From NCBI GenBank assembly GCA_002389265.1, contig DGOD01000317.1, forward strand, positions 1 through 10,630: a stretch of DNA of 10,630 nucleotides, in the 5' to 3' direction. Positions within the stretch are counted from its first letter, which is position 1. The number at the start of each line of letters is the position of its first letter. Origin of the DNA: Gammaproteobacteria bacterium UBA4475 (GTDB taxonomy: Bacteria; Pseudomonadota; Gammaproteobacteria; Pseudomonadales; Azotimanducaceae). A program made the position numbers and the translations under genes. Positions 6,671-9,424 of the stretch are shown here, in pieces. The notes beneath the pieces were generated by a model. The model did not search any database, was not told the origin of the DNA, and was given only the letters and a program-made list of their open reading frames with translations.

Positions 6671-6757
6671 ATGTCAGATATCAGCCTAAGTGTGCAGGAT
6701 ATGCTGAATGACTTTGTCGACGGCAAGGGACGAGCCACTGCGCAGCGCTCGGCGTAA
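6671..6757 (+). CDS. Possible 28-codon small ORF overlapping a minus-strand gene's 3' end
   Basis: ATG at 6671 is preceded by AAGGTGAG (6659-6666), a good Shine-Dalgarno match at short spacing. It opens a frame MSDISLSVQDMLNDFVDGKG ending RATAQRSA at TAA 6755-6757. Most of it is antisense to the end of the hypothetical gene at 6686-7156. It could be a true small protein, the start of a gene whose remainder was deleted, or chance. No family is recognised. Confidence 0.15.
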   Translation: MSDISLSVQDMLNDFVDGKGRATAQRSA

Positions 6758-7156
6758 TTGACTGATCACCAGCTTACGTTCCTCAATCACTGACGGACTG
6801 AGACTGACCCTGGGCTCGAGCGGCAAGACCGTGCTGGCGTTGTCCAGGGTCGGGTCCACATAAATTGGATCGCAAGCCGCACTTAACTTTAGGAATGCCT
6901 TATGAGTAAGGCACGCCTGATCAACACCGTCTTCTCGAATGGTGTCGGCAAAACGCATATAACCTTCCTCCTCCAGCCATAACAATGCGAAAAAGCCAGA
7001 GGTATATCGTGGGCTATGCAGGCCATATTCGTCCGGCTCATCGATGCCGGCAACTTCGTCGACATACAGGGCGAACTTCGATGGAAAATTCGAATAAAGG
7101 AGATTTAATGCCACCGCAATGTGCCGGTAAAAGTTTTCAATATTGATATCAGCCAT
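6686..7156 (-). CDS. Conserved-looking hypothetical protein, possibly winged-helix-like
   Basis: A 156-residue protein from the preferred ATG at 7156 (MADINIENFYRHIAVALNLLYSNFP). A longer frame begins with TTG at 7183 or ATG at 7180, adding 8-9 residues. I do not recognise a named family. Visible features are an amphipathic helix (ENFYRHIAVALNLLYSNF), an acidic segment (VDEVAGIDEPDEYG), a second helix with FFALLWLEEEGYMRF and a third with DQACLTHKAFLKL. The helix, helix, 'EEGYMRF' strand order is reminiscent of a winged-helix protein. The C terminus (SVIEERKLVISQLRRALRSGSSLAVDKVIQHIL) is helical and basic. It is soluble, without signal peptide or membrane segment. It is convergent with the exonuclease gene and divergent from the YjfI-PspA operon. 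Codon use resembles its neighbours, so it is probably a real native gene. Confidence 0.7.
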   Translation of the reverse strand: MADINIENFYRHIAVALNLLYSNFPSKFALYVDEVAGIDEPDEYGLHSPRYTSGFFALLWLEEEGYMRFADTIREDGVDQACLTHKAFLKLSAACDPIYVDPTLDNASTVLPLEPRVSLSPSVIEERKLVISQLRRALRSGSSLAVDKVIQHILHT

Positions 7157-7162
7157 AGGTTG

Positions 7163-7168
7163 ATTATA
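7163..7168 (-). promoter_or_regulatory. TATAAT hexamer just before the hypothetical gene start
   Basis: On the minus strand TATAAT (plus-strand attata at 7163-7168) ends 6 nt before the ATG at 7156, so a transcript started from it would begin at or within a base or two of that ATG. No good -35 exists at 16-18 bp spacing (CGCGCA at 17). Either this is a weak promoter giving a leaderless message or the match is chance inside a longer coding frame. Confidence 0.25.
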
Positions 7169-7262
7169 GCGTTCGAACATCAAACTGCGCGTGTCTTGAT
7201 GCAGCCGGTAGAAATCCTTTTATCAACGGTGGGCCTCGGGTGATTCCGCGGGTAGATTCACC

Positions 7263-7290
7263 TTGACATATTATGTCGCCGCGCTAGACT
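7263..7290 (+). promoter_or_regulatory. Sigma-70 promoter of the YjfI-PspA-RHH-rhomboid operon
   Basis: A perfect -35 TTGACA (7263-7268), a 16-bp spacer and TAGACT (7285-7290, four of six matches to TATAAT). Transcription should begin near 7297, leaving a leader of about 50 nt to the GTG at 7349. The -35 box lies inside the first of two identical palindromes, so a bound regulator would compete with RNA polymerase. Confidence 0.6.
7265..7277. promoter_or_regulatory. Operator copy 1: perfect 6-1-6 palindrome over the -35 box
   Basis: GACATATTATGTC is a perfect inverted repeat (GACATA, central T, TATGTC). The base before it is T in both copies, so the shared identical word is TGACATATTATGTC (14 bp). 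It overlaps the last four bases of the TTGACA -35. The size and symmetry fit a dimeric helix-turn-helix or ribbon-helix-helix regulator; I do not recognise the motif as that of a specific known regulator. Confidence 0.65.
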
Positions 7291-7301
7291 TCGGGCTGAG
7301 T

Positions 7302-7314
7302 GACATATTATGTC
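7302..7314. promoter_or_regulatory. Operator copy 2: identical palindrome near the transcript start
   Basis: The same GACATATTATGTC recurs with centre-to-centre distance of 37 bp from copy 1 (7271 to 7308). That is about 3.5 helical turns, so the two sites would face opposite sides of the helix. It lies just downstream of the predicted transcription start (about +6 to +18) and before the ribosome site. This arrangement is typical of repression, by blocking both polymerase binding and promoter escape. Confidence 0.65.
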
Positions 7315-7348: not shown

Positions 7349-7756
7349 GTGAATACCCAGGATCTGGCTTTGCGCCTGACAGATCTCAGTGGTTATGCTG
7401 GTTATCAGTTTGACTGCCAACCGATACCCGGCGAGATCGGTGTGTTGCAGATCACCGTGGGCGACTATGAAGAGATTCCGGCATTTCTGTCCGTGACTGA
7501 CAGTCAGATTATCTGCATGACCCATCTGTTCAATGACAATGAAGTGATCACCGCCAAGCGCGCCATGATGCTGGAAGAAATGCTTGAACTGAATATTCCC
7601 ATGCCGTTGTCAGCGTTTTCAAAGATTGGTAATCGCTATGTCGTATTTGGCTCACTATCTGTGAATTCCAGCATTGAAGATATTTGCCACGAACTGATCA
7701 CACTGACTGAAAATGCCGCTGAGGCACTCACAGTTTTGGAAGAATATATTCGTTAG
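7349..7756 (+). CDS. yjfI: YjfI-family (DUF2170) protein
   Basis: A 135-residue cytosolic protein. The signature block runs through DYEEIPAFLSVTDSQIICMTHLFNDNEV (39-66) and IPMPLSAFSKIGNRYVVFGSLSVNSSIEDI (83-112), as in E. coli YjfI. In E. coli yjfI sits directly before the pspA-like yjfJ, and the same order is seen here, so it is probably a partner or modulator of the following PspA-like protein. Its biochemical role is unknown. The frame opens earlier (ATG at 7310), but GTG 7349 is chosen because AAGGAG (7336-7341) lies 7 nt before it and because an earlier start would lie inside operator copy 2. Confidence 0.88.
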   Translation: MNTQDLALRLTDLSGYAGYQFDCQPIPGEIGVLQITVGDYEEIPAFLSVTDSQIICMTHLFNDNEVITAKRAMMLEEMLELNIPMPLSAFSKIGNRYVVFGSLSVNSSIEDICHELITLTENAAEALTVLEEYIR

Positions 7757-7784: not shown

Positions 7785-8474
7785 ATGAGTATTTTAAAGA
7801 AAATCATGACGGCGGTTCGCGGTGGTGCTCGAGAAATGGGTGAGCTGGTGGTGGATGCAAATGCTGTCCGTATCTTCGAGCAGGAAATCCGTGAAGCCCA
7901 GACGCATCTGCGTAAAGCCAAGTATGATCTGACCGATGTTATGGCCAAAGCAATGCAAGCCAGCCGACAGATTCAGAGCCTGCATCATGAAATAGATGAA
8001 CATGAAGGATTTGTGGTGCGCGCCATCGAGCAGAGCGATGAAGCATTAGCATTATCAATATCAGAAAAAATCTCAGGGTTAGAGACGGATCTCGAGGAGC
8101 AGCGTGAGGTGCAGGTCACATTCAGCGGTCAGGTAGAGCATCTGCGCTCCCTAGTGTCAAAGACTGAGCGCCAGATTCGAAAGTTTGAACGGCAGTTGAG
8201 CATGCTCAAGACCACCGAGAGCGTCCAAAAAGCCAGTGCCGCAATTGCTGATAATTTCGCGGCCAGCAGTTCAAAAATGCACTCGGCTCGTGATTCTCTG
8301 GCGCGAATCAAGCAACGCCAACAGGAAAAGTTTGATCAAATGAGCGCCGCCGAGGCGGTGCAGGCAGAGACAATGGATGAAAGCCTGACTGAAAAGCTCC
8401 GCAGTGCCGGTATGATTCAAGATAAAACCAGTGCCAAACAGGTGCTCGCCCGGATCAAAGCCGGTCAAAGGTAA
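7785..8474 (+). CDS. PspA/IM30-family (YjfJ-like) membrane-stress protein
   Basis: 229 residues beginning MSILKKIMTAVRGGAREMGELVVDANAVRIFEQEIREA, the amphipathic N-terminal helix and start of the long coiled coil of PspA/IM30 proteins. Heptad-rich helices continue to about residue 195 with no membrane span or signal peptide. The C terminus SLTEKLRSAGMIQDKTSAKQVLARIKAGQR matches the extended tail of YjfJ-like members. The family assembles ESCRT-III-like polymers on the cytosolic face of stressed inner membrane. A GAGGAG ribosome site (7772-7777) lies 7 nt before the ATG, which decides this start over an open frame from 7713. The gap to yjfI is 28 bp. No pspF, pspB or pspC gene is in the window, so control is probably not the classical sigma-54 Psp system. 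Confidence 0.92.
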   Translation: MSILKKIMTAVRGGAREMGELVVDANAVRIFEQEIREAQTHLRKAKYDLTDVMAKAMQASRQIQSLHHEIDEHEGFVVRAIEQSDEALALSISEKISGLETDLEEQREVQVTFSGQVEHLRSLVSKTERQIRKFERQLSMLKTTESVQKASAAIADNFAASSSKMHSARDSLARIKQRQQEKFDQMSAAEAVQAETMDESLTEKLRSAGMIQDKTSAKQVLARIKAGQR

Positions 8475-8496: not shown

Positions 8497-8835
8497 ATGT
8501 CGATCAGCGGTAAGTGGGAAAAAGAAAAAAGTGCCCTTAAGGCCGTGCAGGTGGCCTTTGATGTGGGGGATGATGTGAACCAGTTGATTCGATTCGAAGC
8601 GCTGACTCAGGGTATTAATCCGACAGACCGGGTACGGCAGTTGTTGGGTTTGGCAGTGAACGCCCGACCGATACGTCCACGATTGTCAATCTCTCTGTCA
8701 GAGCAAGACTTTGCCGAGCTCGCGGTGCGATTTGGAGTTGATGCGAGCGATCGACTGAAGATCCGTCAGATTGCCGCTGAAAAACTGATTCAACACCTCA
8801 ACGAGGTGAAACGGGATGAGGTGATGCAGGATTAA
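8497..8835 (+). CDS. Small protein with two ribbon-helix-helix-like segments
   Basis: 112 residues; no named family recognised. Two stretches share a strand-helix-helix plan. The first is KAVQVAFDV (15-23) followed by DDVNQLIRFEALTQ and NPTDRVRQLLGL. The second is RPRLSISLS (60-68) followed by EQDFAELAVRFG and ASDRLKIRQIAAEKLI. Each resembles a ribbon-helix-helix unit, so the protein could be a tandem RHH DNA-binding protein. A linker with ARPIRPR is basic. It is co-transcribed between the PspA-like gene (22-bp gap) and the rhomboid gene (1-bp gap) and has a strong AGGAGG ribosome site at 8487-8492. It is the only DNA-binding candidate in the operon and may bind the twin palindromes upstream of yjfI; that is inference. 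Confidence 0.75.
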   Translation: MSISGKWEKEKSALKAVQVAFDVGDDVNQLIRFEALTQGINPTDRVRQLLGLAVNARPIRPRLSISLSEQDFAELAVRFGVDASDRLKIRQIAAEKLIQHLNEVKRDEVMQD

Positions 8836-8836
8836 C

Positions 8837-9424
8837 TTGCCTCGATTGGTCGTGAATCAATGGCTAGGCAGCTTACGACGTGTTTTCTGGCTCGTCGTCC
8901 TGATCTGGACCCTACAGGCCGTTAATAGCGCTTATGGCATGAATTTCAACGCACTAGGTATTTATCCCCGTGACTGGCAGGGTTTATCGGGTATCTTCAT
9001 CTGGCCATTGTTGCATGCCAATGTAGTCCATTTGTTGATGAACACAGTGCCGCTGCTGATTTTTGGTTTCTTCGTTGCGCTGCGCGGCACAGGCGCGTTC
9101 ATCAAGGCGACGCTGCTGATTGTGATAGTCGGTGGACTCGGCGTATGGATCTTCGGTCGACCTGCGTATCATATTGGCGCCAGTGGCCTGGTGTTTGGTT
9201 ATTTGGGTTTTCTGTTGGCCATTGGAATTTATGAGAAACGGCTGGGTAGCCTGTTAGTCGGTGGCATGATGTTGTTTTATTACGGCGGCATGATTTTTGG
9301 TGTCCTGCCTCAGAATGGTTTTGTTTCCTGGGAAGGACATCTATCCGGGCTATTGGCAGGGGTGCTGGCGGCACGTTTGTTGGCTAGGCCTGAGCGGCCT
9401 AAGCAGCGGTCTGAGCGAAAGTAA
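8837..9424 (+). CDS. Rhomboid-family intramembrane serine protease
   Basis: A 195-residue polytopic inner-membrane protein with about six hydrophobic segments. Catalytic features are HANVVHLLMN (60-69, matching the H-x4-HLxxN motif of TM2), the nucleophile Ser116 in GASGLVFG (114-121), and His168 in WEGHLSGLLAG (165-173). All residues needed for the Ser-His dyad are present. TTG is the chosen start: GCAGGA in the end of the preceding gene lies about 6 nt upstream, the stop of that gene is 1 bp away, and no ATG occurs before the first membrane segment. Placed last in an operon with PspA- and YjfI-like proteins, it probably cleaves or degrades membrane substrates during envelope stress. The tail PERPKQRSERK is basic and should be cytosolic. 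Confidence 0.92.
   Translation: MPRLVVNQWLGSLRRVFWLVVLIWTLQAVNSAYGMNFNALGIYPRDWQGLSGIFIWPLLHANVVHLLMNTVPLLIFGFFVALRGTGAFIKATLLIVIVGGLGVWIFGRPAYHIGASGLVFGYLGFLLAIGIYEKRLGSLLVGGMMLFYYGGMIFGVLPQNGFVSWEGHLSGLLAGVLAARLLARPERPKQRSERK
9385..9401. other. Hairpin in the 3' end of the rhomboid gene
   Basis: TAGGCC (9385-9390), a 5-nt loop TGAGC and GGCCTA (9396-9401) form a perfect 6-bp GC-rich stem inside the last codons. No T tract follows, so it is not a standard intrinsic terminator. It may stabilise the mRNA 3' end or be incidental to the coding sequence. No better terminator is visible in the 76 bp between this gene and the convergent UspE-like gene. Confidence 0.25.

Follow-up and report, generated by a model that had tools for sequence, protein, structure and literature searches.

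A conserved palindrome pair at a DUF2170-pspA promoter and a probable tandem ribbon-helix-helix regulator encoded in the same operon

The window, i.e. the whole stretch of 10,630 nucleotides analysed here (contig DGOD01000317.1 of Gammaproteobacteria bacterium UBA4475), contains a proposed four-gene operon on the forward strand that is preceded by two copies of the palindrome GACATATTATGTC, one at 7265..7277 (putative operator 1) and one at 7302..7314 (putative operator 2), with no strand assigned to either. The first gene encodes a DUF2170 protein, also referred to as YjfI or BacA-like (7349..7756, from a GTG start chosen by the analyst; Pfam PF09938, E 2.4e-31), and is followed by the gene for a PspA/IM30 family protein (7785..8474; Pfam PF04012, E 1.8e-30). 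Both matches lie above the Pfam cut-off and define the unit as a DUF2170-PspA operon. An open reading frame (ORF) of 112 amino acids, hereafter U112, comes next (8497..8835), and a rhomboid-family membrane protease closes the operon (8837..9424; Pfam PF01694, E 2.8e-23). Structural models and neighbours, co-occurrence and covariation make U112 a probable tandem ribbon-helix-helix (RHH) protein and the proposed binder of the palindromes, acting as an autorepressor.

A previous sequence-only reading of this DNA had described each copy of GACATATTATGTC as a perfect 6-1-6 inverted repeat preceded by a T, with a spacing of 37 bp, and had taken the pair as the operator of a dedicated regulator. The window letters bear out the exact copies, their symmetry, the T and the spacing. 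In the assembly of this genome (3,845,368 bases in 389 contigs, 89.7% complete), a scan found the exact word twice, both times at this promoter and nowhere else, and the reversed word used as a control gave 0 copies. Allowing up to two mismatches yields 47 matches (15 forward, 32 reverse) versus 34 for the reversed word, so that weak matches are mostly noise. The palindromes might also have arisen by chance, or act as a hairpin in the transcript rather than as protein sites. Indeed, the window holds four 13-bp 6-1-6 palindromes and 400 simulations under a first-order Markov model gave 2.7 on average, which makes a single one ordinary, and stray copies of the word exist elsewhere. In particular, in genomes G285, G133 and G160 (loci L202, 3176; L206, 4567; L207, 4721) the stray word falls where one conserved gene appears to have its ribosome-binding site and start codon, which looks like a coincidence of two signals and not an operator, and at L208 and L210 a longer palindrome encloses the word. 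However, an identical pair at most 100 bp apart appeared in 0 of the 400 simulations, exact sites stand ahead of DUF2170 in 14 numbered families (analyst's tally), and the upstream palindrome precedes the inferred start site and would thus not be transcribed. A chance or hairpin origin is rejected on conservation and simulations, and is given almost no credence. Judged from its sequence and distribution, the pair is a real, conserved operator: the palindromes are kept upstream of yjfI-pspA homologues in relatives while the flanks diverge, and this conservation, together with the uniqueness of the word in its own assembly, supports the claim of a dedicated regulator. The word itself was found in no paper of the literature searched, nor was any paper joining pspA, yjfI and rhomboid.

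The two sites are interwoven with the promoter. The upstream palindrome overlaps a consensus -35 hexamer, TTGACA (7263..7268, forward strand), formed by TT and the first letters of operator 1, and a -10-like TAGACT (7285..7290, forward strand; a consensus match only) follows after a 16-bp spacer. From this hexamer a start site is inferred near 7297, and operator 2 begins about 5 nt later, just past the predicted start; both placements agree with the sequence-only reading. In relatives, TT stands ahead of the first site in 40/51 paired promoters, and TTGACA is formed with a palindrome in 46 of the 64 DUF2170 promoters compared. In 35/54 TTGACA-palindrome cases, the best -10 at a distance of 16-18 bp matches the consensus in 4 or 5 of its 6 letters, whereas at least 4 of 6 letters are reached at 17% of random places. 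Since the -35 is usually contained in the upstream copy, with the second copy close to the start site, the placement of the sites suggests repression. The spacing varies from 15 to 46 bp in relatives (52 intervals; commonest 35 bp, n = 13), so that the earlier argument that 37 bp sets the sites on opposite faces of the helix is not general, and a fixed helix phase is rejected. A sigma-54 promoter is likewise rejected, as no -24/-12-like site lies within 500 bases of 7263-7314 and sigma-70-like hexamers are found instead; at up to two mismatches, -24/-12 matches number 6 in the whole window versus a chance mean of 7.0. No PspF-like gene was found among the neighbouring ORFs tested, which encode a 165-aa protein without a family, a universal stress protein and an exonuclease; the search for PspF was confined to this neighbourhood. 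The proposal that the operon is controlled without sigma-54 and PspF is thus consistent with these data, although not proved.

Conservation of the operator, recurrence of its target genes, overlap with the promoter and co-occurrence with U112 are established by the comparison across genomes. The exact word is present in 17 of 58 genomes of relatives, counting the source genome. Thirteen of these 17 have it as a pair with 32-40 bp between the copies, and the reversed-word control is found in 1/58. In a sample of 293 genomes of the order, U112 was found in 29, the word in 35 and both in 25, i.e. the word occurs in 25/29 genomes with U112 versus 10/264 without it (reversed word, 8/293). U112 lacks the exact word in G040, G117, G152 (74% complete) and G261, and the word lacks U112 in G057, G106, G133, G160, G162, G174, G188, G193, G241 and G267. 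Among the 57 order genomes with DUF2170, the exact word lies in the DUF2170 promoter in 24/28 with U112 versus 1/29 without it (G106), being missing in 28/29 of the latter. A class sample of 369 genomes, which shares five genomes with the order sample, gave U112 in 13, the word in 13 and both in 9 (reversed word, 9/369), with U112 alone in G396, G523, G553 and G603 and the word alone in G415, G521, G565 and G654. Fisher values, calculated ignoring relatedness, are 4e-24 (order), 6e-11 (DUF2170 promoters) and 2e-12 (class).

The association holds at the level of single promoters. When U112 lies within 4 kb downstream of DUF2170, the exact site is present in 57/64 promoters, mostly as pairs, and the core CATAWTATG in 63/64, the 64 being distinct sequences from fetched loci and not independent lineages; the count leaves out promoters whose upstream sequence was shorter than 60 bases and those that repeat another in their last 120 bases. 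Site information content was measured on sites picked by this core, whose columns are thus full by construction. Marinicella and Zooshikella are among the named relatives with U112 beside DUF2170. In the fetched loci without U112, to which this count is confined, the core is found in 5/24 DUF2170 promoters, three on cut-off contigs (L066, L069, L084) and the others in G185 (L182) and G106 (L185); the order-wide contrast rests on coordinates from the genome searches. Four of the 19 promoters lacking the core belong to paralogues in U112-bearing genomes. As exceptions of another kind, G553 and G603 have U112 with no DUF2170 in the fetched stretch and no site ahead of U112. At these loci (L258 in G603 and L262 in G553), the U112 homologues lie beside DUF58 and transglutaminase genes, or beside an ion channel with an RCK domain.

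The word is also found beyond DUF2170. Overall, it stands ahead of three gene sets, namely DUF2170-pspA, mostly as pairs, and NfeD and X333, as single sites. Single sites precede NfeD in 11 loci, with two SPFH genes in 11/11, and the X333 gene in 5 loci, with DUF350 and spermine-synthase genes in 5/5; Pfam was run on one locus of each set. In the source genome, the NfeD match begins at query residue 58 on the first base of contig C271, the gene being cut by the contig end, so that its promoter is not in the assembly. In G070, G134, G161, G185 and G106 (5.8-6.9 Mb), single sites lie ahead of PilZ-START, zinc-ribbon, 251-aa and 129-aa genes in varying combinations, and in G304 (L188, 4590) an exact palindrome lies 134 nt ahead of rpoH, the sigma-32 gene, so that in this lineage the site may be tied to the heat-shock sigma factor.

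The palindromes could in principle be bound by another transcription factor encoded elsewhere, U112 being an operon passenger with a different role; gene order alone does not separate passenger from regulator. G106 weighs against U112 as the binder, as it has three conserved exact sites (L185-L187) and no detectable U112. Its site promoters match those of its genus-mate G185 within stretches that are 65-80% identical, and the 10-kb region holding U112 in G185 is missing from G106 except for 42 bases. Moreover, an OmpR-type response regulator is found in 7/11 NfeD-site loci (L065, L068, L077, L079, L080, L081, L083), followed in L068 by a 723-aa histidine kinase, both of them best matched to dedicated-sortase-system models at below-cut-off NCBIfam scores. 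However, this regulator is absent from the other 4 NfeD loci (it may lie elsewhere; no order-wide search for it was made), and direct repeats are the usual binding sites of OmpR-type proteins. The passenger explanation is further opposed by the absence of sites at DUF2170 paralogues without U112 in the four U112-bearing genomes, and by a concerted change of operator and U112 residue 64; all in all, it appears unlikely.

This change is seen where U112 has Gly at position 64, in strand motif 2, as in G040, G117, G285 and G151, the other homologues having Ser or Thr. The first three carry GCCATAWTATGGC-type sites in place of the GAC pair, i.e. two GCCATAATATGGC each in G040 and G117 and one GCCATATTATGGC plus one GCCATAATATGGA in G285, and in G151 a hybrid site accompanies an exact one. 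GCC half-sites go with Gly64 in 12/12 cases and GAC half-sites with Ser/Thr64 in 226/229. G011 resembles the Gly64 group in strand 1, but has Ser64 and an exact GAC site. Residue 64 does not account for the CCC half-sites found in G396 and G523, nor for the irregular sites of G499. The Gly64 group represents at most a few events, and an attempt to widen the GCC group found U112 in G285 only among 10 genomes of its family; because the genomes are few and related, the covariation is suggestive. As a separate observation, locus L195 of G151 has a perfect 32-bp palindrome, GTTAACGTTAAGCGATATCGCTTAACGTTAAC, 317 bases before DUF2170.

U112 has no Pfam family at E 0.1. Its structural model is likest, weakly, to tandem RHH proteins in a structural neighbour search. 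Its best four rows, in which the alignment begins at residue 23-24 and ends at 105-107, are AvtR, two F-relaxosome chains and single-chain Arc. Comparison of its two halves by profile gave no signal of an internal sequence repeat, and a search against RHH chains in the PDB gave no sequence match, the only chain listed being a mitochondrial ribosomal protein (E 0.12 and 0.44). U112 of the window had no match in PHROGs, and one of the two homologues tested matched a family of Arc-like repressors (E 0.011). The homologues share conserved strand-like motifs, which, like the covariation of Gly64 with GCC, bear indirectly on sequence-specific contacts of the strands with DNA. A tandem-RHH fold is partly shown. 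Both proteins used for comparison differ from the proposed regulator: F-plasmid TraY, as described in the available text of PMC12117103, acts at oriT in conjugation, unlike the role proposed for U112, and AvtR (4hv0), in the part of PMC5569661 available, is the product of an archaeal lipothrixvirus with a different operator sequence, and it showed no sequence relationship to U112.

Taken together, U112 is likely an autoregulating tandem-RHH repressor of a PspA, SPFH and polyamine-enzyme regulon that acts through the palindromes, where we infer binding, repression, stoichiometry and signal. With two strand-helix-helix units per chain, U112 could form a DNA-binding unit alone, as in F TraY and AvtR; one chain would place its strand pairs in the major groove of each half-site (GACAT/ATGTC), with presumably two chains per palindrome. 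Occupation of the upstream copy would hide the -35 TTGACA, occupation of the downstream copy would block the start region, and the DUF2170-PspA-U112-rhomboid operon would be repressed by its own product. Through the single sites of related genomes, U112 might also repress the NfeD-SPFH and DUF350/spermine-synthase operons, and a membrane- or polyamine-related signal is assumed to relieve repression, possibly via the CesT-like DUF2170 protein or PspA. U112 might instead activate from these sites, or repress and activate by dose. Precedent is given by AvtR, which does both according to the available text of a review (PMC5569661), and L228, L232, L235, L237, L238 and L239 have additional sites, 160 to 260 bases ahead of DUF2170, where an activator might bind. 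However, most paired promoters have the repressor arrangement, i.e. an upstream site that contains the -35 and a second near the start region, so that activation is improbable.

The proposed repressor can be set beside known PspA systems. Ravi et al. 2024 (PMC11237479), in the available text, describe DUF2170 as CesT/Tir-like, report CesT/Tir(DUF2170)-PspA operons with the same core genes as the window operon, some ending with an RHH transcription factor gene, and list a spermine-synthase/DUF350 operon; that text gives no operator for the RHH gene, and literature searches also showed none. The bac operon of Pseudomonas aeruginosa shares the gene pair (bacA for DUF2170, bacB for PspA), but a sigma-54 promoter is proposed there, as opposed to the sigma-70-like hexamers of the window operon, and BacA is suggested to restrain its own operon (available text of Wallart et al. 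2024, PMC10948618). The classical Psp system (PspF, sigma-54, pspABC) has PspA as effector in common with the window operon and differs in its regulator and promoter type. On balance, we lean towards U112, a chromosomal, TraY-like tandem-RHH repressor outside any Pfam family, as the master regulator of a second Psp response that sigma-70 would drive in many families of Gammaproteobacteria. Its regulon would join PspA/DUF2170, SPFH-NfeD and polyamine-synthase/DUF350 under a 13-bp operator that hardly varies, and the change from GAC to GCC as Ser/Thr64 becomes Gly would be a natural switch of specificity. YjfI-PspA systems are widespread and reports on their control are few, and a near-invariant operator with an operon-encoded candidate regulator makes the proposal directly testable. 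The shared site also ties together SPFH-NfeD, DUF350 and spermine synthase, and in some lineages PilZ-START or rpoH, earlier linked by gene neighbourhood, and the covariation is a natural example from which RHH specificity could be read.

Of the loci that remain, L058, L190 and L191 have sites without a recognised target gene, and the sites of L067 and L078 are close to contig ends. No recognised target was found at the sites of the word-only genomes (L074, L200, L204-L210), which are taken as chance. In the window, the intergenic region is shared with a divergent ORF of 165 amino acids (6686..7183, reverse strand), without a Pfam or NCBIfam match, which may or may not share the operators of the DUF2170-pspA operon; in L056, L064 and L070 a homologue is likewise divergent and starts no more than 400 bases from the two sites.
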